Shown here piece after piece: positions 21,490 through 39,348 of a stretch of DNA of 64,000 bases (its first letter is position 1; every line of letters begins with the position of its first letter). Source of the DNA: Actinocorallia herbida. Lineage in GTDB: Bacteria > Actinomycetota > Actinomycetes > Streptosporangiales > Streptosporangiaceae. The translations under genes and the position numbers were made by a program. The stretch spans positions 4,526,001 to 4,590,000 of the forward strand of contig NZ_RJKE01000001.1 of NCBI RefSeq assembly GCF_003751225.1, given 5' to 3'. The notes beneath the pieces are model-generated. The model was not told where the DNA came from, ran no database searches, and was given only the letters and a program-made list of their open reading frames with translations.

Positions 21490-22647
21490 ATGCGCTCACG
21501 GAGCAATGGCATCAGTGGCGGTCTGTGGGGTTCTGGAAGAGCGGGCGTGCTGGCGGTCGCCGTGTGCGCGATGGCCTCGGTGCTCGCGGCCTGCGGCAGC
21601 GGCGGCGCGGACGGCGGCGATGCCGACGGCGTCGCCGCGACGGTGCCCGCACAGGTCCGGACGGACGTCGACGCGCTGCGACGGGATCCGGTGCCTATCG
21701 CGCTGCCCAAGCTGGAGAAGAGCCCGCCGAGCGGTAAGAGCGTGATCTGGCTGGGGTGCAAGTATCCCGAGTGCGCGACGGTCACGAGCGGCATCGAGCC
21801 CGCGGCCGAGGCGCTCGGGTGGAAGCTCACCACGCTGCGTCCCGAGGTCACGCCGGAGGCGATCCTGGCGGCCTGGACGCAGGCGGTCGCGGCGAAGCCC
21901 GACGTCATCCTCGCGATCGACGTGCTGCCGATCCAGGCGATCGCCGAGCAGCTCGACGACGCGGAGAAGGCAGGCATCCGGGTCATCCTGACGGCCGGGC
22001 CCACGAAGCCGGGCGAACACGGCGTCGACGCGTCCATCGGCTCGGTGGCCTTCCGCAAGGCGAACGCCACGGCGATGACCGAGTACGCGATCGCCGACTC
22101 CGGGGGCAAGGCCCACATCCTGCTCGCCTTCGACCCCTCGATCCCGCTGCAGCTCAGCGTCCGGGACGCCGCGAAGGAGGCCGCCGCGACCTGTCCCGGC
22201 TGTTCCTTCGCCGAACTCGAGGTGCAGCTGGCCCAGGCGGGCAAGACCATCCCCGGCCAGGTCATCAGCCACATCCAGCGCCACCCGGACGTGGACTACG
22301 TGATCACCACCGGATCCGGCGCGCTCGGCGTGGCACAGGCGCTGAAGAGCGCCGGGCTCGGCAAGGTCCACCTGGTCACCTCGAACGCGCAGCTGCAGGA
22401 TCTCGCCGAGGTCAAGAAGGGGCTGCAGGCCGCCGCCATCCCGAACGAGGAGATCTCGGTCGGCTGGCGCATGGTCGACGCGGCGGCCCGGCTCCTGTCC
22501 GGCGCGGAACTCCCGGAAGACCTGGCCGACCCCGTCGGCCAGCGGCAGCTGTTCGACAAGGCCAACATCGACGAGGCCGACCTCGAGCACGCCTGGGACG
22601 TCCCGGACAGCCGCACCGCCTTCCTGACGGCCTGGGGACTCGGGTGA
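21490..22647 (+). CDS. ABC importer substrate-binding lipoprotein (type I periplasmic fold)
   Basis: 385 aa. The lipobox VLAAC (residues about 32-36) anchors the mature protein. The body follows the ribose/galactose/autoinducer-2 type I periplasmic-binding fold (SVIWLGCKYPECATV, a DVILAIDVLPIQAIAEQLDDAEKAG segment, YVITTGSGALG). Despite the sugar-type fold, the partner enzyme downstream suggests a cyclic ketone-like cargo rather than a sugar (inference). GAGGGAGGAAC precedes the ATG. The gene is fused by a 4-bp GTGA overlap to the ATPase gene, starting a four-gene coupled operon. Confidence 0.88.
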   Translation: MRSRSNGISGGLWGSGRAGVLAVAVCAMASVLAACGSGGADGGDADGVAATVPAQVRTDVDALRRDPVPIALPKLEKSPPSGKSVIWLGCKYPECATVTSGIEPAAEALGWKLTTLRPEVTPEAILAAWTQAVAAKPDVILAIDVLPIQAIAEQLDDAEKAGIRVILTAGPTKPGEHGVDASIGSVAFRKANATAMTEYAIADSGGKAHILLAFDPSIPLQLSVRDAAKEAAATCPGCSFAELEVQLAQAGKTIPGQVISHIQRHPDVDYVITTGSGALGVAQALKSAGLGKVHLVTSNAQLQDLAEVKKGLQAAAIPNEEISVGWRMVDAAARLLSGAELPEDLADPVGQRQLFDKANIDEADLEHAWDVPDSRTAFLTAWGLG

Positions 22648-24167
22648 AGGCACTCGAGCTCCACTCGGTGAGCAAGGTGTTCGGGTCGCAGCGGGCGCTC
22701 GCGGGCGTCGATCTCGAACTCCACGCCGGTGAGGTGCACGCGCTGCTCGGGCAGAACGGGTCGGGCAAGTCGACGCTGATCAAGGTGCTCGCCGGCTTCC
22801 ACGCGCCGGACGGCCCGGCCGAGGCGTCGGTGCTCGGCGCGCCGCTCGCCCTCGGGGACGCGGCGGCCGCCTACGCCGCCGGACTGCGCTTCGTCCACCA
22901 GGACCTCGCGCTGATCGACAAGCTCGACGTCACCGACAACCTGGCGCTCGGCGAGCGGTACGCGGGACGCCGCTGGCTGGGCCACCGCCGCGAGCGCGCC
23001 GCCGCCGCGGCCCATCTCGCCGCGTTCGGGATCGACCTCGACCCCGACCGGCTCGTCGGGGAGCTGTCGTCGTCGCAGCGCACGATGGTCGCGGTCGTGC
23101 GGGCGCTGCACCCCGCGGCCCCCCCGGCGCGGGTGCTGGTCCTGGACGAGGTCACCGCCTCCCTGCCGAAGACCGAGGTCGAGCAGGTCTTCGCCCTGAT
23201 CCGCAGGATCCGCGACGACGGCGGCACCGTCCTCTACGTGACCCACCGCCTTGAGGAGGTGTTCGCCATCGCCGACCGGGTCACCGTCCTGCGCGACGCC
23301 CGCCGGGTGGCGACCTCGCCGGTGGGCCGGCTGGACCACGACGGTCTCGTCGAGCTCATCGTGGGACGGCGGCTCGACGAGTTCTATCCGGCCGCGCCGC
23401 ACTCCCGGGACGAGGTCGTGCTCTCCGCGCGCGGGCTGACCGGCCGGACCGTCACCGAGGTGGACCTCGACGTCCACCGCGGCGAGGTGCTCGGGATCGC
23501 CGGCCTCGCGGGGTCGGGCCGGGAGGAGATCCCGTACCTGCTGTTCGGCGCCCGCCCGTGGACAGGCGGCGAACTGCGGCTCGGCGGCACGACGTACGAC
23601 GCGCTCACCCCGCCGGCCGCGATCGCGCACGGCCTCGCCCTGATTCCGGCCGACCGCGCGGGCGAGGGCGCCACGCCGTCGATGTCGCTGCGCGAGAACC
23701 TGACCCTCCCCCGGCTGCGGAGCAACCGGGCCGGGTGGATGTCGCTCAGCCGCGAACGCCGCGAGTCCTCGGCCTGGCTCGACCGGCTGCGCGTGGTGCC
23801 GGCCGACGGGGAGGCGCCGCTGTCCCGGTTGAGCGGCGGCAACCAGCAGAAGGTCATGCTCGCCCGCTGGTTCCGGTGCGACCCGGCGGTCCTGCTGCTC
23901 GACGAGCCCACCCAGGGCATCGACGTCGGATCGAAGGCCGCGATCTACGAGCAGCTCACCGAGCGAACCGGACAGGGCCTGTCCGTCGTCGTCGCCTCCA
24001 CCGACCACGAGGAGCTCGCCGCGATCTGCGACCGGGTGCTCGTGGTCGCCGGGGGGCGGATCCGGGCCGAGCTCAGCGGGCGCGCACTGACCGCCGACGC
24101 CATCAGCAAGGGGATCCTGGCGAGGCCGGGAGACCCCGTGAACCAGAGGGGCGCTGACCGCGCATGA
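22644..24167 (+). CDS. ABC importer ATPase with two nucleotide-binding domains (RbsA/MglA type)
   Basis: 507 aa, GTG start overlapping the previous stop. NBD1: Walker A GQNGSGKST near residue 37 and Walker B VLVLDEVTASL. NBD2 begins near residue 255 with a degenerate Walker A (GLAGSGREE), a normal signature (LSGGNQQKVMLARW) and LLLDEPTQGIDVGSK. This asymmetry is normal for carbohydrate-type CUT2 ATPases. It energises import with the neighbouring permease and lipoprotein. The NBD1 signature (ELSSSQRTMVAVVRAL) is a little divergent. Confidence 0.92.
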   Translation: MKALELHSVSKVFGSQRALAGVDLELHAGEVHALLGQNGSGKSTLIKVLAGFHAPDGPAEASVLGAPLALGDAAAAYAAGLRFVHQDLALIDKLDVTDNLALGERYAGRRWLGHRRERAAAAAHLAAFGIDLDPDRLVGELSSSQRTMVAVVRALHPAAPPARVLVLDEVTASLPKTEVEQVFALIRRIRDDGGTVLYVTHRLEEVFAIADRVTVLRDARRVATSPVGRLDHDGLVELIVGRRLDEFYPAAPHSRDEVVLSARGLTGRTVTEVDLDVHRGEVLGIAGLAGSGREEIPYLLFGARPWTGGELRLGGTTYDALTPPAAIAHGLALIPADRAGEGATPSMSLRENLTLPRLRSNRAGWMSLSRERRESSAWLDRLRVVPADGEAPLSRLSGGNQQKVMLARWFRCDPAVLLLDEPTQGIDVGSKAAIYEQLTERTGQGLSVVVASTDHEELAAICDRVLVVAGGRIRAELSGRALTADAISKGILARPGDPVNQRGADRA

Positions 24168-25201
24168 CCACCACCGACATCGCGTCGGCCGAGGAGACCG
24201 CAGGACCGCCGACGCCCAGTCCGGCGCGCCGCCCGTGGACCTCGCAACTGTCCGACTACACGGGCTTGATCATCTGGGCGGCGCTGATCGCGCTGTTCGC
24301 GGCATGGGTGCCCGACACCTTCCTGACCAAGCTGACCGTGCAGACGCTCGCGGGCGAGCAGGCCATCACGGCGATCGTCGCGATCGGCGTGCTGCCCGCC
24401 CTGGCCGCGGGCGCGTTCGACCTCTCCGTCGGCGCGACGCTCGGCCTGTCGGCCGTCATGGTCTCGGCGCTGACCGCCGACGCCGGGATGCCCCTGCTCC
24501 CGGCCGTGGTGCTGACCGTCGGCGCCGGGGTCCTCGTCGGCTCGGTCAACGCCTTCCTCGTCGTCGTGGTCGGCATCGACAGCCTCATCGCGACCCTGGC
24601 GATGAGCTCGGTGCTGGTCGCACCGGCCCGAGCGCTGTCGCACGATCAGATCATCAGCGGCGTGCCCGACTCGCTGACGAACCTGACCTCGGGGATGCCC
24701 TTCGGCGTCCCGGCGATCGCGCTCTACATGTTCGGCATCGCCGCCGTCGTCTGGTACGTCCTCGAACACACTCCGCTCGGCCGCCGGACCGGGGCCACCG
24801 GCGCGGGGCCCGACGCGGCCCGGCTGGCCGGGGTGCGCACAGGCCGCGTCGTGGCCGGGTCGCTGGTGGTCTCGTCCGCCCTCGCCTCGTGCGCCGGGAT
24901 CCTGCTCGCCTCGAAGCTGAGCACGGCCACGCCGGGGCTCGGCCCGGCCTATCTGCTCCCGGCGTTCGCGGCGGCCTTCCTCGGCACCACGCAGATCAAG
25001 CCCGGGAAGTTCAACGTGGTCGGCACGCTCCTCGCGATCTTCCTGCTCGCCACCGGCGTCAAGGGCCTCCAGCTCGCGGGGACGCCGGACTGGATCACCG
25101 ATCTCTTCAACGGCCTCGCCCTCATCATCGCGGTCGGGCTCTCCCTGTGGGGCGGCCGCCTGCTCGCACTCGTCAGACCAAGAAACGGAGACCTCGCATG
25201 A
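24164..25201 (+). CDS. ABC importer permease (RbsC type)
   Basis: 345 aa with about nine to ten membrane segments. The N-terminal 30 residues are polar and cytoplasmic. The family region GVLPALAAGAFDLSVGATLGLSA is intact (FDLSVGA motif), and the coupling segment GRRTGATGAGPDAARLAGVRTGRV lies in the cytoplasmic loop. CUT2 permeases homodimerise with one RbsA-type ATPase. It overlaps both neighbours by four bases (ATGA). Confidence 0.92.
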   Translation: MTTTDIASAEETAGPPTPSPARRPWTSQLSDYTGLIIWAALIALFAAWVPDTFLTKLTVQTLAGEQAITAIVAIGVLPALAAGAFDLSVGATLGLSAVMVSALTADAGMPLLPAVVLTVGAGVLVGSVNAFLVVVVGIDSLIATLAMSSVLVAPARALSHDQIISGVPDSLTNLTSGMPFGVPAIALYMFGIAAVVWYVLEHTPLGRRTGATGAGPDAARLAGVRTGRVVAGSLVVSSALASCAGILLASKLSTATPGLGPAYLLPAFAAAFLGTTQIKPGKFNVVGTLLAIFLLATGVKGLQLAGTPDWITDLFNGLALIIAVGLSLWGGRLLALVRPRNGDLA

Positions 25202-26043
25202 CGACCTTCGACCCCCTCTTCCGGACCCGGCTCGACCAGTACGCACCGCATTTCGGGGAATTCTTCAAGCTCCGCTTCGAGGACGGCATCCTCGAAGTCC
25301 GGATGCACACGAAGGACGGCCCCCTGCGCTGGGGCGGCGGCCCGCACCGCCAGCTGATCCCGCTGCTCCAGGCCATCGACCACGACGAGGACGTCGAGGT
25401 CGTGATCATCACCGGCACCGGGGACACGTTCAACGCCGCGATCGACACCGACGAGTACCGTGGCCGGGGCATGCTGGAGCGCTGGGACAACTGGAACACC
25501 GGCTACGACCTGACCTACCGCGACCAGGTCCGCGAGCCGATGGCGCTGCTCGGCCTCCAGGTGCCGGTCATCGCGGCGATCAACGGCCCCGTCCTGACCC
25601 ACGCGGAGCTCGCCCTCCTCAACGACATCGTGATCTGCTCCGACACCACGGTGTTCTCCGACGGCCACTGGGACGGCCTGGGGATCGTGCCGGGCGACGG
25701 CGTCCACACCGTGTTCCGCGAACTCCTCGGGCACAACCGCGGCCGCTACTTCCTGTACTCCGGGCAGGTCATCGACGCCCGGGAGGCGCTCGCGCTCGGG
25801 CTCGTCGGCGAGGTGCTGCCCGCCGACCAGGTGCTGGAGCGCGCCTGGCAGATCGCCCGCGAGTGGTTCATGACCAAGAGCCGGGTGCAGCGCAGGCTCG
25901 CGCGGGCGACCCTGATCCAGCCGTGGCGTGAGCTGTTCGTCAAGGAGATCGCGTTCGGCATGGCGCACGAGTGCCTCGGCGCGGCGATCGGCCCGCCCGC
26001 CCCGCTGAGCGGTCCGCTCCGCGAGGCGTTCGGGATCGAGTGA
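25198..26043 (+). CDS. Crotonase-superfamily C-C hydrolase, 6-oxocamphor hydrolase-like
   Basis: 281 aa. 6-Oxocamphor hydrolase is a crotonase-fold enzyme that opens cyclic beta-diketones by a retro-Claisen reaction. Seen: VIITGTGDTF, VPVIAAINGPVLTHAE, GIVPGDGVHTVF, GHNRGRYFLYSGQ and GMAHECLGAA, which match the Rhodococcus enzyme as I recall it. H135, D167 and E258 line up with its catalytic H122, D154 and E244. H157 lies one position off H145 in the alignment. Coupling by ATGA to an importer suggests it acts on the imported compound. An ordinary enoyl-CoA hydratase is less likely, because the usual oxyanion and Glu pair are absent. Confidence 0.8.
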   Translation: MTTFDPLFRTRLDQYAPHFGEFFKLRFEDGILEVRMHTKDGPLRWGGGPHRQLIPLLQAIDHDEDVEVVIITGTGDTFNAAIDTDEYRGRGMLERWDNWNTGYDLTYRDQVREPMALLGLQVPVIAAINGPVLTHAELALLNDIVICSDTTVFSDGHWDGLGIVPGDGVHTVFRELLGHNRGRYFLYSGQVIDAREALALGLVGEVLPADQVLERAWQIAREWFMTKSRVQRRLARATLIQPWRELFVKEIAFGMAHECLGAAIGPPAPLSGPLREAFGIE

Positions 26044-26059: not shown

Positions 26060-28900
26060 TCAGCGCGGGCCGGGCGGGCCCGCCTCTCCGGCGGGCCGCA
26101 GGTGGCCCGACTCGACGGCCCGGGCCAGCTCGACCCGGTTGCCGCAGCCGGTCTTGGTGTAGATGCGGCTCAGATACGCCTCGACCGTCTTCACGCTGAG
26201 GAAGACGGCCGAGGCGATCTCGCGGTTGGTGAACCGCTGCTGGACCAGGCGCACGATCTGCTCCTCGGTCTCGGTGAGCAGCCGGCTCGGCCTGGTGCGC
26301 AGGCGCGGCAGCGGCATGCCGCGGCGGCGCAGCTCGGCAACGGCCCGCTGCTTCCACGGCGCCGCGCCCAGGGTCTGGAAGATCCGGGCGGCCTCGGTCA
26401 GGTGTTCCGCGGCCTCGTGGTCGAGCATCCCCAGCGCCAGCCGGACCGAGCCGCGGTGCAGGGCCAGGGCGTGCGCGTCGGCGACCCGCATCGCCTCGAG
26501 CAGCTCCGCGACGTCCCCGGTGGCGCGGCCGTGCGCGAGCCGGACCGCCACATAGGTGGGGTGGTCGACGACGTCGCGCCCCTCGTCCAGCAGGTCCGCG
26601 ACCAGTTCGGCGGCGAGCCGCGACCGGCCGGCGGCGATCTCGGTGTCGGCGAGGCGGCTCAGCAGCAGCGCGCGCACCCAGCGCGGCATCGTCGGCCGCT
26701 CCAGCTGGAGCTTGAGGTCGCTGCGGGCCGCCTCCAGGTCGCCGCTGAGCAGGTGGAAGCCCGCGCGCGCCCAGACCTGGATCGCGTCGCAGTGCGCGTC
26801 GCCGGAGAGCGGCTTCTCGGCCGCGCGGCGCGCCGCGGCCCAGTCGCCGCGGTTGGCCAGGATCTCGATCTCCGCCGTGCGCATCACGCCGAGGTGCATG
26901 CGCGAGCCGGTCAGCTCGAGGTCGTGCGCGGTGGCGTCGATGATCGACAGCGCCGCCGACCAGTCACCGAGGTGGTCCGCGTTCTGGACCTGCGCGGTGG
27001 CCAGGTCGTTGTTGTAGAGGGTCCACCCGACGGTCGCCTGCACCTGCTGGGCCCGCGCGATGGCGGCCGAGGCGAGGCGGGTCTCCCCCGTGCCGGCGTG
27101 CGCGTAGCTGACGACGGCGAGCGCGGCGAGCTCGAACGGCGCGGGGGCCTCGTCGGCGGCCCGCTCCATCATCGCGCACAGCCGCGGGAGCTCGTCGACG
27201 CGCCGCTGCACGAAACGCATCCGCATCAGGTGGCCGATCGCGACGATCCGCTCCTGCGGGGAGAGCGAGGGCAGCCCGGCCTCCACCTCCCGTGCCCGGT
27301 CGAGCGCCTCGCCGGCCCGGCCCACGCCCATGTGGATGTGCGCGGCCTTGGCCAGGAACGTCAGGCTGGAGGCGGACCTGGGCAGCTCGTCGTCGATGAG
27401 GCCGACCGCGTCGTGCATCTCGCCCGCGAGCACCATGCCGTCGACGACCTGGGTCACCAGGCGAGTCCGCGCGACGCCCTCCGGCATCAGGGCCAGGGCG
27501 CGCAGCCCCGCGCCGACCGCCTCGTCGGGCCGCCCGGCCAGCAGGTAGGCGCGGGAGAGGCGCGCGAGCAGCGCCGGACGCCGTGCGTCCTCATCGGGAA
27601 GGACGCCGATCGCCTTCCGGTACCAGCCGACCGACGACCCGGGCGCGGCGTCGCAGGCCCGCTCGGCCGCCCGGGTCAGCGTCGCGATCGCCCGTTCGTC
27701 GCCGACCTCGGCGACATGCTGGATGTGGTGCGCGATCTCCAGGTCGACCGCGGGCGACGACGGCAGCGCGGCCAGCTGCTCGGCCGCCGTCCGGTGCCAT
27801 CGCCACCGCTGGGCGGGGCCTATCTCCTGGTAGAGCGCCTCACGGACCAGTTCGTGGCTCACGCTGTACCCGTTGCGGTCCCGCAGGCGCAGGACGCCGC
27901 GGCTCACCAGGCTGTCGAAGGCGGTGTCGGCCTGCTCGTGGGTGAGACCGGCGAGCATGGCGGCCAGGCCCACCCGGGCGTGGCCGACCACACCGAGGAG
28001 CGCCACCGCACGGCTCAGCGCGGCGGCGGGCGGGTCGATCCGCAGCACCCGGCGCACGAAGGCGCGGCGCCGGTCCTCGGTGAACTCGATGCCCTCCGCG
28101 GCGCCCAAGCCCGCGGCCTCCCCCGCCGCCCCGGACTCGCGCACGCTGAGGCTCGCCTCGATGGCGAACAGCGGGTTGCCCGCGCTCAGCCGGTGGATGG
28201 TGTCGATCCACGCGGCGGTGTCGGCGGCGGGTCCGAGCACCGTGGCGGCGATCCGCTCGATGGCGTCGTCGGACAGCCGGCCGAGCGCGATCTCGGAGAT
28301 CCGCTTCTCGCCCCGCAGGCGTTCGAGCAGCGGCGTGACGGCGGACGGCGTCCCCGGCTCGCGGTCGCGCATGTTGCCGAGCAGGACCAGCGCGTGCCCT
28401 CCGCGTAGCCGCAGGAGATGGCCGACCAGGACGACGGTGTCGACGTCGGACTGCGCCAGTTCGTCGAACGCCAGCGCCACCGGGCGCTCCGCGGTCAGGG
28501 CGGTGAAGAAGCGCGACGCGGTCGCACGCACCGAGGCGGTCGAGTGCGCGGCGGCGACGTCCAGCGCGGTGAGGAGGTCCCGGGCCGACGACGCGAGGTC
28601 GTCGTCCATGGCGGGCAGCCCCTTCACGATCGCGTGCCGCAGACCCGCGTAGGGGACCATGTGGTCGAGTTCATCGGCCTGGATGTCGAACACCGTCCAG
28701 CCGCGCTCGCGCATGGCCGCGCCTGCGCTCGCGAGGAGCCGGGACTTGCCGATGCCCGCCTCACCGACGATCAGCACCGCGCGCCCGGCCGGGTCCGCCG
28801 GGTCTCCGACGCGTTCTTCGACGGTCTTCAGATCCTCGGCCCGGCCGGTCAGCGGCACGTCGTCACCGGCCACCAGGCCCCCGCGCGGCTGCGTCGTCAC
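26060..28900 (-). CDS. Large LuxR-family ATP-binding regulator (LAL/MalT-like)
   Basis: About 946 aa. Residues about 15-330 form an STAND-type AAA ATPase (Walker A GEAGIGKSRLL; VALAFDELAQSD as Walker B). Residues about 330-860 are helical repeats of TPR type. The last 65 residues are a LuxR helix-turn-helix (LTETEEQIVRLVQQRFTNRE, then SVKTVEAYLSRIYTKTG). Such regulators are usually activators switched by a ligand bound to the repeat region. It is convergent with the importer operon and divergent from the esterase/ligase operon, so both may be targets. The GTG at 28900 has GAGGAG four bases upstream; GTG 28903 is an alternative. Confidence 0.9.
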   Translation of the reverse strand: MTTQPRGGLVAGDDVPLTGRAEDLKTVEERVGDPADPAGRAVLIVGEAGIGKSRLLASAGAAMRERGWTVFDIQADELDHMVPYAGLRHAIVKGLPAMDDDLASSARDLLTALDVAAAHSTASVRATASRFFTALTAERPVALAFDELAQSDVDTVVLVGHLLRLRGGHALVLLGNMRDREPGTPSAVTPLLERLRGEKRISEIALGRLSDDAIERIAATVLGPAADTAAWIDTIHRLSAGNPLFAIEASLSVRESGAAGEAAGLGAAEGIEFTEDRRRAFVRRVLRIDPPAAALSRAVALLGVVGHARVGLAAMLAGLTHEQADTAFDSLVSRGVLRLRDRNGYSVSHELVREALYQEIGPAQRWRWHRTAAEQLAALPSSPAVDLEIAHHIQHVAEVGDERAIATLTRAAERACDAAPGSSVGWYRKAIGVLPDEDARRPALLARLSRAYLLAGRPDEAVGAGLRALALMPEGVARTRLVTQVVDGMVLAGEMHDAVGLIDDELPRSASSLTFLAKAAHIHMGVGRAGEALDRAREVEAGLPSLSPQERIVAIGHLMRMRFVQRRVDELPRLCAMMERAADEAPAPFELAALAVVSYAHAGTGETRLASAAIARAQQVQATVGWTLYNNDLATAQVQNADHLGDWSAALSIIDATAHDLELTGSRMHLGVMRTAEIEILANRGDWAAARRAAEKPLSGDAHCDAIQVWARAGFHLLSGDLEAARSDLKLQLERPTMPRWVRALLLSRLADTEIAAGRSRLAAELVADLLDEGRDVVDHPTYVAVRLAHGRATGDVAELLEAMRVADAHALALHRGSVRLALGMLDHEAAEHLTEAARIFQTLGAAPWKQRAVAELRRRGMPLPRLRTRPSRLLTETEEQIVRLVQQRFTNREIASAVFLSVKTVEAYLSRIYTKTGCGNRVELARAVESGHLRPAGEAGPPGPR

Positions 28901-28930
28901 CACTCTCCTCGACTTCCGGGATGAATGTAA

Positions 28931-29044: not shown

Positions 29045-29091
29045 GGTTTCTCCGGATCATCGACTGCGGCAACGACAGCGAGGAGGCTGGC

Positions 29092-30630: not shown

Positions 30631-32085
30631 TTGCGTCCCGTAGGCGACATCCTCACCGGGCACGCCACGAGGCGGCCGGACGAGCTCGCGTTCACCTGCG
30701 GCGACCGGTCGATCACCTGGGCGGGGCTGGAGTCCCGCGCCAACCGGCTGGCCCGCGCCTATCAGCGGCGCGGCGTCGGGCACGGCGACCTGGTCACCGT
30801 CGCGCTCCCGAACTCCATCGAGACCTTCGCGGTCTTCTACGCGCTCTGGAAGATCGGCGCGGTCCCGCAGCCGGTGTCCGCCAGGCTGCCGGGCCCCGAG
30901 CTGGCGCGGATCGTGGCGCTCGCCGATCCGTCCCTGGTGATCGGCGCGGTCGCCGACCTCGTGCCCGGCCGACAGGTGCTCGCACCGGGGTTCGAGCCCG
31001 ACCCGGACCTCTCCGACGGCCCGCTGCCGTCGGCGGTGTCCCCGTCCTGGAAGGCGCCCACCTCCGGCGGCAGCACCGGACGCCCGAAACTGATCGTCTC
31101 CGGCCACACCGGCGCACCCGACGTCGAGGCGCTGGCCCGGATCTTCCTGCTGCGGCCCGGACAGGTGCAATTGGTCCCCGGACCGCTCTACCACAACGCG
31201 CCGCTGACCCTTTCCACCGTCGGCTCGTACCTCGGCCAGCACGTCGTCGTCATGCCGCGGTTCGACGCCGCCGCGGCGCTCACGGCGATCGCCGAGCACC
31301 GCGTCACCATCGTCAACCTCGTGCCGACGATGATGCTGCGGATGCTGCGGCTCATCGACGCCGATCCCGGCAGGTACGACCTGAGCTCGCTCGAGGTCGT
31401 CTGGCACATGGGCGGCCCGTGCCCCGAGTGGCTCAAGGACCGGTGGATCGAGCTGGTCGGCGCGGCCCGGATCTGGGAGCTGTACGGCGGCACGGAAAGC
31501 CAGGCCTTCACGACCATCGACGGCGTCGCGTGGCAGCGGCGGCGCGGCTCGGTCGGCCGCCCGGTCACGGGCGAGATCGCGGTGCTCGACCCCGACGGCA
31601 CGCCGGCACCGCCCGGCGTGGTCGGCGAGGTCGTGCTCCGCCGGAGCGCCGGGACGCCCCCGACGTACCGGTACATCGGCGCGGAACCCCGCGAGTTCGG
31701 CGACGGCTGGGAGTCGCTCGGCGACCTCGGCAGCCTCGACGAGGACGGATACCTCTATCTGGCCGACCGGCGCGTCGACATGATCGTGACCGGGGGCGCG
31801 AACGTCTACCCGGCCGAGGTCGAGTCGGCGATCCAGGAGCACCCGGACGTCGCCTCCGTCGTCGTCATCGGCCTGCCCGACGAAGATCTGGGCGCGCGGG
31901 TGCACGCGCTCGTGCAGACCGGCGGGCGGCCCTTGGACGAGGACGAGGTCAAGGCGTTCGCCGCGGCGAGGCTCGCCGGCTACAAGGTCCCCCGCACCGT
32001 GCGGTTCGTCGAGGAGGTCCTGCGCGACGACGCGGGAAAAGTACGGCGCAGCGCGCTGCGCGATCGAGAGGTGGCCCGCACATGA
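30631..32085 (+). CDS. Acid-CoA ligase (ANL superfamily), copy 1
   Basis: 484 aa. It activates a carboxylic acid to acyl-AMP, then acyl-CoA. Seen: the phosphate-binding loop PTSGGSTGRPKLI (a GGSTG variant of the usual SGTTG), the adenine motif LYGGTES, the hinge YLADRRVDMIVTGGANVYPAE, and the catalytic Lys in DDAGKVRRS at the C-terminus. Start is TTG at 30631 with GGGAG eight bases before it, three bases after the esterase stop. The variant loop is shared with proteins annotated as bile-acid or long-chain acid-CoA ligases. It is closely paralogous to the next gene. Confidence 0.9.
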   Translation: MRPVGDILTGHATRRPDELAFTCGDRSITWAGLESRANRLARAYQRRGVGHGDLVTVALPNSIETFAVFYALWKIGAVPQPVSARLPGPELARIVALADPSLVIGAVADLVPGRQVLAPGFEPDPDLSDGPLPSAVSPSWKAPTSGGSTGRPKLIVSGHTGAPDVEALARIFLLRPGQVQLVPGPLYHNAPLTLSTVGSYLGQHVVVMPRFDAAAALTAIAEHRVTIVNLVPTMMLRMLRLIDADPGRYDLSSLEVVWHMGGPCPEWLKDRWIELVGAARIWELYGGTESQAFTTIDGVAWQRRRGSVGRPVTGEIAVLDPDGTPAPPGVVGEVVLRRSAGTPPTYRYIGAEPREFGDGWESLGDLGSLDEDGYLYLADRRVDMIVTGGANVYPAEVESAIQEHPDVASVVVIGLPDEDLGARVHALVQTGGRPLDEDEVKAFAAARLAGYKVPRTVRFVEEVLRDDAGKVRRSALRDREVART

Positions 32086-33548
32086 CCGACCCACTCCCCG
32101 TCGGGGACCTCCTGACGGCACACGCCGCGGCGAGACCGGACGATCCGGCGGTGACCGGCGACGGCCGCACCGTGACGTTCGCGCGGCTCGAGGCGCGCGC
32201 CAACCGCCTCGCCCGCGCCTACCGGCGCCTCGGTGTGGCGCAGGGCGACCTGGTGAGCGTCGGCCTGCCCAACGGCGTCGAGTTCTACGAGTCCTGCTAC
32301 GCGATCTGGAAGCTCGGCGCCGTCCCCCAGCCGCTGTCCTACCGGCTCCCCCCGGCCGAGCTCGCCCAGGTGCTGAAGCTCGCCGACCCGTCGCTGGTCA
32401 TCGGGTTCGACGCCGCGGTGGCCGGTGGACGCGCCTGCCTGCCCGCCGGATTCGAGCCGGATGCCACGCTGGAGGAGACGCCGCTGCCTTCGCGGGTCTC
32501 GCCGTCGTGGAAGGCGCCGACCTCGGGCGGCAGCACCGGCGTGCCCAAGATCATCCTTTCGGGGGCGTCGAGCGCGTTCAACGTGGAGGCGTCCGCCGCC
32601 GTCTTCGGGATGCGGTCCCATCAGGTGCAGCTCGTGCCGGGACCGCTGTACCACAACGCGCCGTTCGCCTGGTCGATGCTCGGCTCCCACCTCGGCCAGC
32701 ACGTGGTGGTGCTGCCGCGGTTCGACGCCGAGGCGGTCCTCGAGGCGGTCCAGCGCCACCGCGTGCAGTGGCTCAGCCTGGTGCCGACGATGATGCACCG
32801 CATCGTCCAGCTCGTCGATGAGCGCCCCGGCGCCTACGACCTCGGCTCGCTGGAGCACGTCTTCCACACCGGCGCGCCCTGCCCTCCCTGGCTCAAGCGG
32901 CGGTGGATCGACCTGGTCGGCGGCGCCCGGCTGCACGAGGGCTACGGCGGCACCGAGGGCATCGCGATCACCTCGATCGACGGCACCGACTGGCTCGCCC
33001 ATCCCGGCTCCGTCGGCCGGGTCGCCGCCGGGGAGATGCGCGTCGTCGACGGGGCGGGCCGCCCGCTCCCGGCCGGGGAGATCGGCGAGATCCAGATGCG
33101 CCGTCCCGCCGGCACGCCCCCGACCTACCGCTACCTCGGCGCCGAGACCGTCGAGAAGCCGGGCGGCTGGGAGACCATCGGCGACCTCGGGCACTTCGAC
33201 GAAGAGGGCTATCTGTTCCTGAGCGACCGCCGCCTCGACCTCGTCGTCTCCGGGGGCGCGAACGTGTACCCGGCGGAGGTCGAGGCGGCGATCCTCGAAC
33301 ACCCGCGGGTGCTGACCGCGGCCGTGGTGGGGCTGCCCGACGACGACCTGGGGCAGCGCGTGCACGCCGTCGTCCAGGCCGACGGGGAGCTGTCCGCCGA
33401 GGCGCTCGCGGAGTTCGTGGGCGAGCGCCTGGTCCGCTACAAGGTGCCGCGCTCCTTCCGCTTCGTGGACCACCCCCTGCGGGACGAGGCGGGGAAGGTG
33501 CGGCGCGCGGAGGTGCGCGAGCGTGAGCTCGCCCTGCTCTCGTCTTGA
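32082..33548 (+). CDS. Acid-CoA ligase (ANL superfamily), copy 2
   Basis: 488 aa, overlapping the preceding ligase by ATGA. It keeps the same variant loop (PTSGGSTGVPKII), GYGGTEG, FLSDRRLDLVVSGGANVYP and the C-terminal catalytic Lys (DEAGKVRRA). Block by block it is clearly a duplicate of copy 1, yet it differs in the acyl pocket region (LYHNAPFAWSMLGSHLGQ versus LYHNAPLTLSTVGSYLGQ) and in the loop after GYGGTE. This suggests two related acids or two stages of one pathway. Confidence 0.9.
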   Translation: MTDPLPVGDLLTAHAAARPDDPAVTGDGRTVTFARLEARANRLARAYRRLGVAQGDLVSVGLPNGVEFYESCYAIWKLGAVPQPLSYRLPPAELAQVLKLADPSLVIGFDAAVAGGRACLPAGFEPDATLEETPLPSRVSPSWKAPTSGGSTGVPKIILSGASSAFNVEASAAVFGMRSHQVQLVPGPLYHNAPFAWSMLGSHLGQHVVVLPRFDAEAVLEAVQRHRVQWLSLVPTMMHRIVQLVDERPGAYDLGSLEHVFHTGAPCPPWLKRRWIDLVGGARLHEGYGGTEGIAITSIDGTDWLAHPGSVGRVAAGEMRVVDGAGRPLPAGEIGEIQMRRPAGTPPTYRYLGAETVEKPGGWETIGDLGHFDEEGYLFLSDRRLDLVVSGGANVYPAEVEAAILEHPRVLTAAVVGLPDDDLGQRVHAVVQADGELSAEALAEFVGERLVRYKVPRSFRFVDHPLRDEAGKVRRAEVRERELALLSS

Positions 33549-33582: not shown

Positions 33583-34494
33583 ATGACCGAGTACCGCTAC
33601 CTGAAGTACGAGACGTTCGACGACGGCAAGGTCGTGCGCATCTCGTTGAACCGGCCGGAGCGCCGCAACGCGCAGAGCCGCGGCCTCCTCGTCGAGCTGG
33701 ACGAGGCGTTCCTGCGCGCCGAGCGCGACGACGTCGTCCGGGTCGTCATCCTCGCCGGGGAGGGTCCGACGTTCTCCTCGGGCCACGACCTCGGCTCGCG
33801 CGAGTACCTTGCGGAGAGCACCCCCGGCCCGTCCCAGCACCCCACCTACGGGTTCAACGGCGGGACCCGCCTCGCCGCCGAGCGACGGATGCTGCAGGAG
33901 CACCACTACTTCCAGGAGAACACGAAGCGGTGGCGCAACCTGCGCAAGATCACCATCGCTCAGGTGCAGGGCGAGATCTTCGCAGCGGGCCTGATGCTGG
34001 CCTGGGCGTGCGACCTCATCGTCGCCGCGGAGAACGCGCGGTTCGCCGACCCGGTCGGTCCCCGGCTCGGGGGCGCGGGCGTGGAGTACTTCGCGCACCC
34101 CTGGGAGTTCGGGCCGCGCAAGGCCAAGGAGCTGCTGCTGACCGGCGACGCGATCGACGCCGATGAGGCGCATCGCCTGGGCATGGTCAGCAAGGTGTTC
34201 CCGGTGGAGGACCTCGCGCAGCGGACCCTCGAGTTCGCGCAGCGCATCGCGCTGGTGCCGACCGCGGCGTCGCTGGGCACCAAGGAGGCGGTCAACCAGA
34301 GCGTCGACGCCCAGGGCTTCCAGATCGCGCTCTCCGCGGCGTTCTCGCTGCACCACGTGCTGCACGCGCACTGGGCCGAGCTGCACGGCAGCGACTGGCC
34401 GCTGGCCAAGGAGGAGGACGGGGTGCCGGACTGGCGCACCGCGCCGCCGGTGGCGCTCGCGGTCAAGGACAGCGTCGGCGGCGCCTGGGCGTGA
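33583..34494 (+). CDS. Enoyl-CoA hydratase/isomerase family protein
   Basis: 303 aa. Crotonase fold: SLNRPERRNAQS, EGPTFSSGHDLGS (oxyanion GHD), then AQVQGEIFAAGLMLAWACDLIVAAE. The usual hydratase Glu pair is not obvious, and a long insert (about residues 85-115, rich in His and aromatic residues) lies between the two oxyanion motifs. It may therefore hydrate a bulky acyl-CoA or cleave a ring. The ATG at 33583 has GAAGGAG nine bases upstream. It is the last gene of the esterase/ligase operon, closed by a strong hairpin. Confidence 0.88.
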   Translation: MTEYRYLKYETFDDGKVVRISLNRPERRNAQSRGLLVELDEAFLRAERDDVVRVVILAGEGPTFSSGHDLGSREYLAESTPGPSQHPTYGFNGGTRLAAERRMLQEHHYFQENTKRWRNLRKITIAQVQGEIFAAGLMLAWACDLIVAAENARFADPVGPRLGGAGVEYFAHPWEFGPRKAKELLLTGDAIDADEAHRLGMVSKVFPVEDLAQRTLEFAQRIALVPTAASLGTKEAVNQSVDAQGFQIALSAAFSLHHVLHAHWAELHGSDWPLAKEEDGVPDWRTAPPVALAVKDSVGGAWA

Positions 34495-34714: not shown

Positions 34715-36136
34715 ATGTCAGCCACACCCGCCCGCCTCGTGGTCATCGGAGCCGGTCTCGCGGGCCTCGCCACCGCGCTGTCCGCGTCGCGGGCCGGACA
34801 CGACGTCGTGGTCGTCGAACGCGACGCGATGCCCGCGCTCCGCGACGGCGACGAGGCCTTCACGCACTGGGCGCGCCCGTCGGTGCCGCAGTGGCGGCTC
34901 GTCCACAACCTGTCCGCCCGGGTGCGCGAGCTGCTGCTGGCGGAGGCGCCCGACGTCCTCGACCTGCTCCGGGCCGACGGCATCGAGGAGGTCAACCCGA
35001 TCGAGGCCCTGCTGCCGCCGGAGCTGCGCCGTCCCGAGGACGCCGCGCTGACCGGGCTGGTGTGCCGCCGTCCCGCGTTCGAACTCGCGCTCCGCCGCGC
35101 GCTCGAGCACGACGGGAAGGTGCGCCTCCTGGTCGGCAAGGTGCACGCGCTGGGCCTCACGCCGGGCGCGACGCCCGTCGTCAACGGAGTGCTCCTCGCC
35201 GACGGGACCCGCCTCGACGCCGATCTGGTCGTCGACGCCGCAGGCCGCCGCACTCCGGTGCCGCAGTGGCTCCGCGAGGCGGGGGCCGACCTCCGGACCG
35301 ACTCGGAGCCGTGCGAGCTCATCTACTACTCGCGCTACTTCCGGGCCGCGCCGGACCGGCGGCCGGACTACCTGGGCATGCCGCGCGGCGACCTGGGCCA
35401 CCTGCACTACTGGACCTTCGTCGGCGACCACCGGACCTACGGCGCCGTGTTCGGCGTCCCGACCTGGGACCACGAACTGCGCGAGCTCCGCCACGGCGCC
35501 TCCTGGGACGCGCTGGCCGCCGAGATCCCGGCGTTGGCCGCCTGGACCGGCAGGTTCGACGGCACCCCTCTGCACGAACCGCAGGTGATGGCCAACAACC
35601 ACAACACGCGGCACCACTACGTGGTGGGCGACCGGCCGCTCGTCCGCGGGCTCGTCGCGGTCGGCGACGCCTTGAGCACCACCAACCCGATGCGCGCCTG
35701 GGGCATCGCGATGGCCCTGACGCACGCGTTCGCGGTGGCGCCCGCCCTCGCCTCGGACGACGGCGTGGAACTCGCCCACCACCGGGCCGTCGAGGCGCAG
35801 AACCGGCTCATCCACGAGATCTCCGCGGTCACCGACCGGCTCCGCCGCTACCGGTGGCGCGGCCTGCCCGTCCCGCCCGCCGACGCGGCGGCGGCCGAGG
35901 AGGAGAGCCTGCTCAGTCACGGGGTGCTGCCGTTCCTCGGCGAGCAGCCGGAGTTCCTGCGCGCGGTGCTGCGCAGCATGGCGCTCATCGACCCACCGGA
36001 CGCCCTGTTCCACGACCCCGCCGTCGTCGAGCGCGCGCGGGAGGCCCGTGCCCGAGGGGTCGCCGCGGCCTCGCCCGGACCCGACCGCGCCCGCACCCTC
36101 GAACTCGTCGCGACCGCCCTGCGGGAGACCGCGTGA
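34715..36136 (+). CDS. FAD-dependent monooxygenase/oxidoreductase
   Basis: 473 aa. N-terminal dinucleotide fold VVIGAGLAGLATALSASRAG ending in VVVVERD, a DAAGRRT segment near residue 172 in the position of the group-A DG motif, and the flavin GD motif GDALSTTNPMRAWG near residue 318. This is the PHBH/styrene-monooxygenase-like fold. I cannot tell whether it takes NAD(P)H directly or needs a separate reductase; none is adjacent. The start at 34715 has CAGGAGAG upstream. It leads an operon with an SsuABC-type importer, overlapping the permease by four bases, so it probably oxidises that importer's cargo. Confidence 0.83.
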   Translation: MSATPARLVVIGAGLAGLATALSASRAGHDVVVVERDAMPALRDGDEAFTHWARPSVPQWRLVHNLSARVRELLLAEAPDVLDLLRADGIEEVNPIEALLPPELRRPEDAALTGLVCRRPAFELALRRALEHDGKVRLLVGKVHALGLTPGATPVVNGVLLADGTRLDADLVVDAAGRRTPVPQWLREAGADLRTDSEPCELIYYSRYFRAAPDRRPDYLGMPRGDLGHLHYWTFVGDHRTYGAVFGVPTWDHELRELRHGASWDALAAEIPALAAWTGRFDGTPLHEPQVMANNHNTRHHYVVGDRPLVRGLVAVGDALSTTNPMRAWGIAMALTHAFAVAPALASDDGVELAHHRAVEAQNRLIHEISAVTDRLRRYRWRGLPVPPADAAAAEEESLLSHGVLPFLGEQPEFLRAVLRSMALIDPPDALFHDPAVVERAREARARGVAAASPGPDRARTLELVATALRETA

Positions 36137-36963
36137 CCGGGCTCGCCGCCACGAAGGCACGGCCGAGTTCGCGTCAGGCCCAGTCGGGCGGGCCGCCCGG
36201 CGACGCGGCCGCGCTGGTGCGCCGGGCGATCGTGCCCGTGTTCCTGATCGCCGCCTGGCAGACCGCCGCGGCCTCCGGCGTCATCGACGTCAGGCTGTTC
36301 TCCTCGCCGGTGCGGACCGCGTCCCGGCTGGTGGAGCTGACCGTCGACGGGACCCTGCCGGGCAACCTGCTGATCTCGGTGTGCCGCGCGGCGCTCGGCC
36401 TCGGGCTCGGGGTCGCCACGGCCCTCCTGCTCGGGGTCGCCGCGGGCCTGTGGACCCTGGGCGAGGAGCTGATCGACTCGACCGTGCAGATGGTGCGCAC
36501 GGTGCCGGTGTTCGCGCTGACCTCGGTGTTCGTCGTGTGGTTCGGGTTCGGCGAGCTGCCGAAGATCCTGCTGATCGCGATGGCGTGCTTCTTCCCGGTC
36601 TACCTCAACGTCTACGCGGGCGTCCGGGGCGTCGACCGCGGGCTGATCGAGATGGCCGGCGCGATGGGCAAGACGCAATGGCAGGTCATCCGCCACGTGC
36701 TGCTGCCCGGGGCGATGCCCCAGACGCTGGTGGGCCTGCGCTTCTCCTTCTCGATCTCCGTGTTGGCCCTCGTCATCGCCGAGACCCTGAACGCGACGAG
36801 CGGTCTGGGCTACCTGCTGATGACGGCCCAGCAGTACGTCGACACCGACACGATCTTCGCCTGCGTCATCGTGTACTGCCTGCTCGGCATCGCGGTCGAC
36901 GTCCTGGTCCGGTCGCTGGAGCGCCGCTTCCTGGTGTGGCGCGCGTCCTTCGGGGGTCGCTGA
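36133..36963 (+). CDS. ABC importer permease (SsuC/TauC type)
   Basis: 276 aa, GTG start overlapping the monooxygenase stop. Six predicted membrane segments, with the EAA loop visible as EMAGAMGKTQWQVIRHVLLPGAMPQTL (residues about 172-198). The family imports sulfonates, taurine, nitrate, thiamine precursors or aromatic acids. Its monooxygenase partner recalls desulfonation systems, but that enzyme is not of the SsuD or TauD family. Confidence 0.9.
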   Translation: MTGLAATKARPSSRQAQSGGPPGDAAALVRRAIVPVFLIAAWQTAAASGVIDVRLFSSPVRTASRLVELTVDGTLPGNLLISVCRAALGLGLGVATALLLGVAAGLWTLGEELIDSTVQMVRTVPVFALTSVFVVWFGFGELPKILLIAMACFFPVYLNVYAGVRGVDRGLIEMAGAMGKTQWQVIRHVLLPGAMPQTLVGLRFSFSISVLALVIAETLNATSGLGYLLMTAQQYVDTDTIFACVIVYCLLGIAVDVLVRSLERRFLVWRASFGGR

Positions 36964-37709
36964 TGCCGGCCTCCACCGACGGCGTCGTCCTCAGGGACGT
37001 GCACCGGTCCTTCGGCGAACGCAGCGTGATCGACGGCCTCGACCTCGACGTGCGCCCCGGGGAGTTCGTCTGCCTGCTCGGCCCCAGCGGGTGCGGCAAG
37101 ACCACCCTGCTGCGGATCCTGGCGGGCATCGACGAGACGGACTCCGGGGTGGTCAGCGCGCCGAGCCCGACCGCCGTGGTCTTCCAGGAGCCCCGGCTGC
37201 TGCCGTGGCGCCGGGTCCTCGACAACGTGCTGTTCGGCGGCGGCGCGGGCGCGGACGCCCGGCCCCGGGCGCTCGCCGCGCTGACCGAGGTCGAACTCGA
37301 CGGGCACGCCGACGCGTGGCCCGCCACGCTGTCCGGCGGCCAGGCCCAGCGGGTCGCGCTGGGGCGGGCCCTGGTCCGCGAGCCCCGCCTGCTCCTCCTG
37401 GACGAACCCTTCGCCGCGCTCGACGCGCTGACCCGGCTGCGGATGCAGGACCTGGTCCAGCGGCTCGCCGCGCGGCACCGCCCCGCCACCGTGCTGGTGA
37501 CCCACGACGTCGAGGAAGCCGTGCTCCTGGGTGACCGCGTCCTGGTGATGTCCGCGGGGCGCATCGAGCACGACGTCGACACCCGGCACATCGGGCGCGA
37601 CCCGTCCTCGGCGCCCGAGCTCGACCGGCTGCGGCGCCTGCTGCTCGCGGAGCTCGGCGCCGCGCCCACCACCGATTTCCGCTCCGGCGAAACAAAGGAA
37701 GCATCATGA
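36963..37709 (+). CDS. ABC importer ATPase (SsuB/TauB type)
   Basis: 248 aa. Walker A GPSGCGKTT (residue about 41), Q loop VVFQEPRLLPW, signature LSGGQAQRVALGRALV, Walker B LLLLDEPFAALDAL, and H loop VTHDVEEAV. The FQEPRLLPWR segment is typical of the nitrate/sulfonate/taurine family. Its ATG shares the last base of the permease stop (TGATG). Confidence 0.93.
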   Translation: MPASTDGVVLRDVHRSFGERSVIDGLDLDVRPGEFVCLLGPSGCGKTTLLRILAGIDETDSGVVSAPSPTAVVFQEPRLLPWRRVLDNVLFGGGAGADARPRALAALTEVELDGHADAWPATLSGGQAQRVALGRALVREPRLLLLDEPFAALDALTRLRMQDLVQRLAARHRPATVLVTHDVEEAVLLGDRVLVMSAGRIEHDVDTRHIGRDPSSAPELDRLRRLLLAELGAAPTTDFRSGETKEAS

Positions 37710-38692
37710 TCGGATCCCGGCTCCTCCTCGCGGCCGCGGCGGCCACCGCGCTGCTGGCCAGTGCCTGCACCGGCGCCGAGCCCCCGGGCGGCGGCGCCGA
37801 CGACGGCGACCTCTCCTCCACGAAGCTCGCGGTCTCCGTCGGCGCGACGACCAACGCGTTCCTGAAGACGGCGAACGAGTTCGACACCCCCTACACCGTC
37901 GAGGAGGTCAACGCCTCGACGCCGAAGGACCTCGCCTCCGCGCTGGCCTCGGGCCGGGCCGACCTGCTCCTGCTCGGCGACGTGATCACCTCGACCCTCG
38001 CCGGCCAGGACCTTCCGTTCACGATCGTGTACGCGCAGCAGCGGGCGAAGGGCTTCTGCGGCGTCCTCGTGCCGAAGGGCTCGACCGCGAAGACCGTCGC
38101 CGACCTGCGGGGCAAGACCGTCGGCAACGGGGTGTCCACCGCGGGCGAGATCATCGCGATCCGCTCCTTCCAGCGGGCCGGGCTCGACTACCTGAAGGAC
38201 GTCGAGAAGGTCGACCTCGCGACCATCCCCGAGCAGCAGGCCGCGTTCGTCAGCGGCAAGGTCGACGCGCTGGCCACCTGCACCCCGCCCGGCGGCTCGC
38301 TGGTGGCGGAGGGCAAGGCCCGCTGGCTGGTCACCGGCGAGGACGGCCTGTGGAACGCCCAGAACTACTGGGTCCTGTCCGACAAGGCGCGCGAGGACCC
38401 GAAGAAGGTCGAGGCCGCGCTCGACTACATCACCAGGTTCAAGAAGTCCCTGACGTACACCAACGCGCACACCGACGAGCTCCTGGCGCAGCTGTCGAAG
38501 GCCACCCAGGTCCCCGCCGAGCAGCTCAGGCTGTCGTTCGCCGACCCGATCCAGCCCGTCCCGCTCGACGCCTCGGTGACCCAGGGGCTCCAGGACACCT
38601 ATGACGCCCTGGCGACCACCGGCCGGGTCAAGTCCGGCGTCGCCGTGGCCGACCACTTCGACGCCCAGTACAACGACCGGATCGGCGAGTGA
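37706..38692 (+). CDS. ABC importer substrate-binding lipoprotein (NMT1/SsuA-like)
   Basis: 328 aa. Signal peptide with lipobox LASAC (residues about 17-21), then a type II periplasmic-binding fold. Residues around STPKDLASALASGRADLLLLGD and the SAGEII-like segment TAGEIIAIRSFQRAGLDY match the NMT1/SsuA group, which binds sulfonates, nitrate, thiamine precursors or aromatic acids. Ligand not predictable. It overlaps the ATPase gene by ATGA. Confidence 0.87.
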   Translation: MIGSRLLLAAAAATALLASACTGAEPPGGGADDGDLSSTKLAVSVGATTNAFLKTANEFDTPYTVEEVNASTPKDLASALASGRADLLLLGDVITSTLAGQDLPFTIVYAQQRAKGFCGVLVPKGSTAKTVADLRGKTVGNGVSTAGEIIAIRSFQRAGLDYLKDVEKVDLATIPEQQAAFVSGKVDALATCTPPGGSLVAEGKARWLVTGEDGLWNAQNYWVLSDKAREDPKKVEAALDYITRFKKSLTYTNAHTDELLAQLSKATQVPAEQLRLSFADPIQPVPLDASVTQGLQDTYDALATTGRVKSGVAVADHFDAQYNDRIGE

Positions 38693-38733
38693 CGGCCGAC
38701 GCCGTCGCCCGCCGCCGAGCTGAGGAGGACCCC

Positions 38734-39348
38734 ATGTCCGGCGACCTTGAGACCCGCCTGCGCGAGCTCGTCGACGAGCACGACATCCGCGAGGTGGTGC
38801 TGCGCTACGCGCGCGCCCAGGAACGGCATGACCGCGAGCTGCTCTCGACGGTCTTCCATCCCGACGGGATCTACGAGCACTACGAGATGGAGCCGTACCG
38901 CATCAACGGCGACCTCGCGGGATTCCTCGACTTCGTCGTCCAGGCGTGGGCCGCGGCGCCCATCACGTCGAAGGGCCTGATGGTGCCCTCCACCTACGTC
39001 GAGCTCGAAGGCGACATCGCCTTCGCGGACTCGTCCGCTCTGAGCCTCAACCCGGTGAACCAGAACGGCGTGCGCCACGACTACCTGCGCTCGCTCCGCT
39101 TCCTCGACCGCTTCGAGCGCCGTGACGGTCGGTGGCGCATAGCCCACCGCCTGGTCGTCAGCGGTGGCTACGAACGCTGGGAGCCCGCCGCGCCCTCCCC
39201 CTTCACGGGCATCGCCAGCCCCGATCTCGCCAGCGGATACCACCCCGACGACCTCTGGTACACCCTCCGCGACCGGCTGCGCCCCGGCTCCGTCGCCGAA
39301 CGGACCATCCAGGAGAAGCCGGTCTATCTCCAGGAGGAGGCCCGGTAG
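38734..39348 (+). CDS. SnoaL-like (NTF2-fold) protein
   Basis: 204 aa. The core EVVLRYARAQERHDRELLSTVFHPDG and RFLDRFERRDGRWRIAHRLVVSG are the SnoaL_4/ring-hydroxylating-beta-like pattern. Members include scytalone dehydratase, bile-acid 7-alpha-dehydratase and ketosteroid isomerase relatives. Tyr and His residues in the cavity (HYEMEPYR, HDYLRSL) could act as general acid/base. The ATG at 38734 with GAGGAGG upstream is preferred over an earlier GTG inside the previous stop. As last gene of the monooxygenase/importer operon it may dehydrate or isomerise the hydroxylated product. Confidence 0.82.
   Translation: MSGDLETRLRELVDEHDIREVVLRYARAQERHDRELLSTVFHPDGIYEHYEMEPYRINGDLAGFLDFVVQAWAAAPITSKGLMVPSTYVELEGDIAFADSSALSLNPVNQNGVRHDYLRSLRFLDRFERRDGRWRIAHRLVVSGGYERWEPAAPSPFTGIASPDLASGYHPDDLWYTLRDRLRPGSVAERTIQEKPVYLQEEAR

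Follow-up and report, generated by a model that had tools for sequence, protein, structure and literature searches.

The described enzymes nearest to the hydrolase reported here are 6-oxocamphor hydrolase (OCH; structures 1o8u and 1szo), which we take to come from Rhodococcus, and the beta-diketone hydrolase of Anabaena (ABDH; 2j5g and 2j5s). Importers of the CUT2 class are known for sugars and autoinducer-2. ABDH is a coenzyme A (CoA)-independent member of the crotonase family. Its catalytic residues are D153, H144, E243 and H43 (PMC3584854). TpdR of Rhodococcus jostii TMP1 is a large ATP-binding LuxR (LAL)-type activator of the tpdABC degradation operon (PMC6099782). Here we describe a locus of Actinocorallia herbida in which homologues of such proteins stand together. 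The locus lies within a window (the whole stretch of DNA analysed, 64,000 nucleotides, positions 4526001-4590000 of a 9.8 Mb single-contig genome) in which a codon-usage caller found 59 genes. On balance, we favour the view that two linked transcription units, with an LAL regulator gene between them, form a pathway that breaks down a compound which is imported and probably alicyclic. The genes listed by an earlier sequence-only reading of this DNA were recovered where it had placed them by independent gene calling and family scans, and its statement that no locus with this gene order had been described agrees with our literature search, which found no description of such a locus, with coverage of subscription journals mostly missing.

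By sequence, predicted fold and most of its catalytic residues, the product of the crotonase gene at 25198-26043 (forward strand) is a C-C hydrolase of the OCH/beta-diketone hydrolase family. In phmmer searches its best solved relatives were 1o8u (E 4.5e-47) and 2j5g (E 4.1e-44), with the next enoyl-CoA hydratase at E 7.8e-18, 26 to 29 orders of magnitude behind. A six-sequence profile that included the window protein gave 2.5e-102 and 7.9e-85 for the same two structures against 2.7e-37 for the next. An AlphaFold2 model of the protein (mean pLDDT 85.5, 21-sequence alignment) placed 1o8u, 1szo, 2j5g and 2j5s in ranks 1-12, ahead of every enoyl-CoA hydratase; the TM score with 1o8u was 0.83-0.85 over the model, with 38% identity in the structure alignment. 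OCH is thus the best match in both sequence and structure and shares the crotonase fold. Its residues W40, H45, H122, D154 and E244 are kept, in aligned columns, as W45, H50, H135, D167 and E258 of the window hydrolase, H122 being the residue altered in 1szo. From their aligned columns, residue types and spacing we equated D153, H144, E243 and H43 of ABDH (PMC3584854) with D154, H145, E244 and H45 of OCH; on this basis H43, D153 and E243 match residues kept in the window.

Despite this likeness, the window hydrolase does not group with OCH. In a FastTree tree, it forms a clade (support 0.991) with its homologues from two other genomes of the family, G284 and G289, and this clade lies inside a larger actinomycete group (0.984; 0.933 with L121) that does not include 1o8u. 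The latter groups with L063, L070 and L082, the last two from Nocardioides, and a weak node (0.434) joins the two groups; ABDH is on a separate branch with cyanobacterial proteins. Since the tree sets the window clade apart from 1o8u, we do not take the window hydrolase, on this tree, to be a 6-oxocamphor hydrolase orthologue. Among the substrates that the sequence-only reading had in view, camphor is unsupported, because the hydrolase stands apart from 1o8u and because no camphor-type P450 was seen among the 49 of 59 window proteins that were scanned against Pfam. A steroid gained no support either, although no search aimed at ring-degradation enzymes such as KshAB, KstD and HsaC was made.

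The hydrolase gene is the last of four coupled genes on the forward strand. The first (21490-22647, with a start at 21490 or 21547) encodes a CUT2, ribose-type substrate-binding lipoprotein (PF13407, Peripla_BP_4, E 7.7e-18) whose lipobox is read in the translation as ...MASVLAACGSGG. It is followed by an RbsA-type ATPase with two ABC domains (22644-24167; PF00005 in two stretches) and a CUT2 permease (24164-25201; PF02653, BPD_transp_2, E 6.7e-30), so that the domain make-up of a CUT2 importer is complete. All junctions are 4-base overlaps (22644/22647, 24164/24167 and 25198/25201), in agreement with the coupling noted from the sequence. An ordinary sugar importer unrelated to the hydrolase would also account for the transport genes, as the top models are mostly sugar importers (AraG, YtfR, xylose, RbsA and AlsA). 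Among the matches listed, however, none reaches its cut-off, the importer genes are joined to the hydrolase gene by the overlaps, a CUT2 importer also accompanies an OCH gene in Frankia, and in G284 another importer occupies that place; we regard this explanation as highly improbable. The importers of the window and of G284 share the domain make-up of Liv- and CUT2-type ABC importers but adjoin a C-C hydrolase rather than sugar or amino-acid genes.

The second transcription unit, also on the forward strand, encodes a type-B carboxylesterase (29098-30627; PF00135, E 2.6e-100; GESAG at 183), two acid-CoA ligases (30631-32085 and 32082-33548; both PF00501/PF13193) and an enoyl-CoA hydratase (33583-34494) of the PRK08290 subfamily, which scores 383 bits against an NCBIfam cut-off of 280. 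The ligases are 61% identical to each other and carry the P-loops TSGGSTGRPK (ligase 1) and TSGGSTGVPK (ligase 2); TSGGSTGxPK, a looser form of the AMP-ligase pattern, is found in both window ligases and in both ligases of G284, while the strict pattern gave none. Between the two units, on the reverse strand, lies the LAL gene (26060-28903), convergent to the importer-hydrolase genes and divergent from the esterase operon. Its product, noted earlier as 946 residues, has 947 and shows every hallmark of the class: a length of about 900 residues, an N-terminal ATPase (AAA_16) with a Walker A motif (GEAGIGKS at residue 47) and a C-terminal LuxR helix-turn-helix (GerE). Both the regulator and the composition of the esterase operon are thereby borne out.

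Most of this set recurs in a second genus. We compared 341 genomes of the source's family, the own genome included, and in G284, a member of another genus, the hydrolase, LAL, esterase, both ligases and hydratase form one block, with identities to the window of 69% (OCH), 50% (LAL), 58% (esterase), 61% (ligase 2) and 75% (hydratase); ligase 1 is 67% identical over 395 residues, and its C-terminal piece 65%. The block spans two contigs whose ends, including that of contig C90, share an exact 124-base overlap at which ligase 1 is cut; C90 continues with the remainder of ligase 1, ligase 2, the hydratase, a thiolase, a hydroxyacyl-CoA dehydrogenase and an acyl-CoA dehydrogenase. The resulting order is acyl-CoA dehydrogenase, hydroxyacyl-CoA dehydrogenase, thiolase, enoyl-CoA hydratase, ligase 2, ligase 1 and carboxylesterase, divergent from LAL, OCH and importer. 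The hydratase-to-OCH span is 9.3 kb in the window and 9.4 kb in G284. What differs is the importer next to the hydrolase, which is ribose-type (CUT2) in the window and of the branched-chain-amino-acid type in G284, where OCH is followed by a binding protein, a permease-permease-ATPase fusion and a separate ATPase. Thus the block is a lineage-restricted catabolic locus with a core conserved in two genera and an exchanged importer. Since the greater part of the set is also present in the other genus, beside an importer of another type, it probably functions as a unit.

Could the two units instead be independent, serving different compounds as mere neighbours? They are separate units, and the importer is not the same in the window and G284. 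Furthermore, a search of the 65 genomes in G284's genus gave three LAL matches at E<=1e-60, namely G284 and two at 34-35% identity (G299 and G300); these last two sit among acyl-CoA dehydrogenase, ligase and hydratase genes (the hydratases 46-48% identical to the window's), with no close OCH in the 20 kb around them (best 28%). Against this, the other genus again has OCH, LAL, esterase, ligases and hydratase together, in a rearranged orientation within 9.4 kb, and 339 of the 341 family genomes lack a close esterase: at E<=1e-120, with 4 candidates scored per genome, only the own genome and G284 have one. Independence of the two units is, in our judgement, distinctly unlikely. Close relatives of the hydrolase are rare in themselves. 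OCH-type matches at E<=1e-25 occur in 53 of the family genomes and at 52% identity or more in three: the own genome, G284 (69-70%) and G289 (52%). Two other species of the own genus gave no OCH match at E<=1e-25, and close LAL and esterase matches are also missing from them. A second sample of 396 genomes spread across the phylum yielded, at E<=1e-45, the own OCH and one other at 39%, and among the best 80 of 514 relatives none exceeded 45% identity.

Taken as a single pathway, the block suggests the following model. The CUT2-type importer would bring the compound, or a conjugate of it, into the cell. There the crotonase-fold hydrolase encoded in the same operon, presumably independent of CoA, would carry out the retro-Claisen cleavage of a 1,3-diketone to a keto acid. 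The carboxylesterase may act on an ester or lactone intermediate to free an acid, the two related ligases would turn acids into CoA thioesters, and the enoyl-CoA hydratase would begin beta-oxidation. Later steps, for which G284 has genes in the same operon, would be encoded elsewhere here, perhaps by the acyl-CoA dehydrogenase pair at 16111-17232 and 17249-18454 (reverse strand; Pfam scan). This pair lies outside the coordinates given by the sequence-only reading and its membership of the locus is unproven; it could supply the step encoded within the operon in G284, and homologues of both its genes also occur near the LAL relatives of G300 and G299. Finally, by analogy with TpdR, the LAL protein might sense a pathway compound and activate both operons. 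The tpdABC/TpdR system shares with the window an LAL-type regulator at an actinomycete degradation operon (PMC6099782); it differs in its substrate, tetramethylpyrazine, and the comparison made here covers the regulator. Gene content, family membership, most catalytic residues, the 4-base overlaps and the recurrence of the block were established directly; the order of steps, the direction of regulation, the ring nature of the substrate and the CoA independence we infer. The single regulated pathway claimed earlier is supported for the first two operons, whose genes would cover uptake, retro-Claisen-type hydrolysis, ester cleavage and activation to CoA thioesters, with an LAL regulator.

Neighbouring genes were counted within 4 kb of OCH (566 kb in all) and at 6-10 kb from it (438 kb) in 77 of 107 loci; the remaining 30 gave no OCH gene with the caller, whose training set was the high-GC window. 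In at least four pairs of loci both members come from a single genome (L054/L078, L060/L092, L052/L077 and L057/L088), and the counts include the loci that supplied reference proteins (L048, L049, L054, L193 and L199). All numbers are small: near versus far, Liv-type importer genes stood at 14 versus 3, acyl-CoA dehydrogenase at 8 versus 4, P450 at 7 versus 1, GMC at 6 versus 0, Ssu at 4 versus 0, CUT2 at 1 versus 0 and SDR at 0 versus 2. Plasmid records with an OCH match numbered 37, and the neighbourhoods of eight were examined. Those of Paraburkholderia sprentiae and Rhodococcus sp. 008 are annotated with P450, GMC oxidoreductase or CoA-pathway genes beside OCH, and that of Sphingobium sp. 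TKS with genes for SDR, NTF2-like, fumarylacetoacetate hydrolase and FAD-dependent monooxygenase proteins; the other five show different settings. The loci most similar in theme are those of Rhodococcus sp. 008 plasmid pR8L1 (by annotation) and Nocardioides sp. Root1257 (L070; partly by eye), where OCH adjoins an AMP-binding ligase, enoyl-CoA hydratase, acyl-CoA dehydrogenase and thiolase. They have P450, MaoC and TetR where the window has the esterase, ligase pair and LAL, and the Nocardioides OCH belongs to the tree group of 1o8u; the tree did not include the Rhodococcus one. The OCH family is therefore a general tool, sometimes found beside importers and ring-oxidising enzymes, and the window's block is one rare arrangement of it.

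Two characterised OCH-family members act on cyclic diketones. The title of 2j5s names a bound oxocyclohexyl-type product, and some OCH loci have P450, SDR, GMC and CoA-pathway neighbours. These points count against the idea that the locus, in place of an alicyclic compound, breaks down an acyclic or aromatic-derived diketone or detoxifies a polyketide-like metabolite. The varied settings of the family, which include xanthine dehydrogenase-type enzymes and MFS pumps, speak in its favour, as does the failure of all of the best 25 models per ligase to reach their cut-offs. We hold such a substrate to be rather doubtful and continue to prefer an alicyclic one.

The class of importer beside OCH varies from locus to locus: it is CUT2 in the window and in Frankia, Ssu-type in one Nonomuraea, and of the branched-chain-amino-acid type in G284, in two other actinomycetes (G029 and G058) and in Roseicella, Siccirubricoccus and Belnapia. 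We tentatively suggest that OCH-family hydrolases might mark modular catabolic loci with an exchangeable importer class, that CUT2 types in such loci might take up alicyclic or terpenoid-derived compounds, and that the window clade, whose catalytic histidine is displaced, might stand for a new specificity among diketone hydrolases, controlled by an LAL protein. If this and the pathway proposed above are true, rare actinomycetes would possess a compact, testable pathway for a ring compound, the C-C hydrolases would include a CoA-independent subfamily whose active-site loop is altered, and the swapping of different importer families around one enzyme module would help to assign substrates to orphan CUT2/Liv importers.

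Two of the loci deserve separate mention. In Frankia canadensis (L141, 7837-13313), OCH lies between SDR-like genes, recognised by eye, and a CUT2 ATPase and permease, with the CUT2 binding protein and a downstream P450 in the same run; it is a second OCH-CUT2 pairing. In Nonomuraea (L054 and L060), the OCH homologue is preceded by a 203-207-residue protein, which in L054 has no Pfam match, and an S15-type hydrolase is near; L054 also has the Ssu-like importer beside OCH.

Several observations weigh against a single pathway for an alicyclic compound. No oxygenase or dehydrogenase could be assigned as the maker of the diketone, and no P450 of any type was found among the 49 of 59 window proteins scanned with Pfam. 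At the active site, the column of OCH H145, a histidine nearly invariant across the 21-sequence alignment, holds W158 in the window hydrolase, with H157 one residue earlier, so that the equivalent of H145, and of H144 in ABDH, is displaced; the G284 enzyme has the same W with an adjacent H, and that of G289 a Y with an adjacent H. The whole block was found in only two genomes, the own and G284, and in no third among the 341 of the family. G289, with the second closest OCH, has neither LAL nor esterase in the 40 kb examined, and none of the 80 named OCH loci (the best 80 of 514 relatives, some on short contigs) has an LAL or esterase neighbour. Near versus far from OCH, ligases were counted at 3 versus 1 and thiolase at 0 versus 7. 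With ligases near OCH in 3 of the 77 loci and thiolase near it in not one, the family as a whole shows no rule linking OCH to CoA chemistry, and a general link to ligases or thiolases was discarded. Lastly, no common operator was found upstream of the importer-OCH and esterase operons: the 9- and 10-mers shared by these regions in the window and G284 are short GC-rich words only, and we did not find them convincing as a shared LAL operator.

Downstream of the hydratase, on the same strand, lies a third operon, which the sequence-only reading had joined to the locus as an FAD monooxygenase, an SsuABC-type importer and a SnoaL-like protein. The genes are there: a flavoprotein (34715-36136), SsuC-, SsuB- and SsuA-type importer genes (36133-36963, 36963-37709 and 37706-38692; family scans) and a SnoaL-like protein (38734-39348; SnoaL_4, PF13577, E 2.5e-14). 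The flavoprotein is a probable monooxygenase on weak family matches, as its best NCBIfam model, QhpG, gives 56.6 bits against a cut-off of 240, and its best solved relative, MonCI (E 2.3e-12), matches the N-terminal half only. Membership of these genes in the locus is unproven, the operon being tied to the block by adjacency alone.

One could propose that all three operons serve one alicyclic compound, with the flavoprotein making the diketone and the second importer bringing a co-substrate or a second form. Besides adjacency on the same strand, this would fit the Nonomuraea locus L054 (L078 is the same record) with Ssu-like genes beside OCH, and also G289, where OCH stands directly behind a different flavoprotein (FAD_binding_3), with a SnoaL gene about 3 kb and an Ssu-like importer about 15 kb beyond OCH (45% to SsuB, 33% to SsuC). 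On the other side of OCH in G289 come a VOC protein and then a protein of the fumarylacetoacetate-hydrolase family. Against this reading, at E<=1e-30 none of the other 340 family genomes gave a match to the SsuA-like protein, with 6 candidates scored per genome, and the flavoprotein has none at E<=1e-60 in G284 or G289. Matches to the flavoprotein at that threshold occur at 10 places (L168-L177) in 9 other family genomes, with 42-46% identity, and none of these places has an Ssu gene as best match. Seven share the same three neighbours, by eye asparagine synthase-, nitroreductase- and LLM-type proteins; L175 and L177 share some of these and L171 none. A gap of 220 bases with inverted repeats separates the hydratase from the flavoprotein, although the stability of the repeats is not significant (z -1.65; 12 of 200 shuffles as stable). 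We consider a three-operon pathway rather unlikely and leave the third operon out, because the SsuA-like protein lacks family matches and the relatives of the flavoprotein sit, at 9 of the 10 places, in another recurrent cluster. With membership unsupported, the hydroxylation attributed to the locus by the sequence-only reading is not assigned to it, and the co-occurrence of hydrolase, LAL and ligases that the reading proposed to look for was found in G284, together with the esterase and hydratase; the flavoprotein-SsuCBA-SnoaL operon was not found with the block. A looser theme, OCH with flavoproteins or Ssu-like importers, does exist across loci. The recurrent set shared in part by 9 of the 10 flavoprotein places resembles a biosynthetic gene cluster, with asparagine-synthase-, nitroreductase-, methyltransferase-, LLM- and SARP-like proteins by eye.

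The divergent control region between the LAL gene and the esterase operon (28904-29097, 194 bases) holds 5 dyads, four of them one nest, against a mean of 0.66 in composition shuffles. One dyad, CACAGGCGTAACATCCTGTG (28931-28950), lies within a site that resembles a promoter of the LAL gene (28952-28924, reverse strand), and the overlap is suggestive of autoregulation and no more; promoter-like sites numbered 1 in 19.5 kb against a shuffle mean of 0.2. A dyad with a GTAAC-bearing spacer present in the LAL-esterase gaps of both the window and G284 differs in arms and orientation, and was judged to be chance.

In the own genome, searches matched 41 crotonase-fold proteins (E<=0.001) and 24 AMP ligases (E<=1e-40), as in an acyl-CoA-rich degrader. 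Elsewhere in the window, within 9668-14543 and 15416-18454, a TetR gene with a zinc alcohol dehydrogenase and a glyoxalase and a LysR gene with an MFS pump were seen, and in the 15416-18454 region a TetR gene and the acyl-CoA dehydrogenase pair are divergent. At 54533-56824, some 15 kb from the locus, an IclR regulator is divergent from a CoA-transferase gene (55456-56175), for which the next gene (56198-56824) may encode the partner subunit; this is a possible beta-ketoadipate-type unit. Finally, at 44-3460, a 1138-residue protein with POR and DUF6537 domains, which we take to be an indolepyruvate ferredoxin oxidoreductase-like fusion, is encoded divergently from an AsnC-type regulator.

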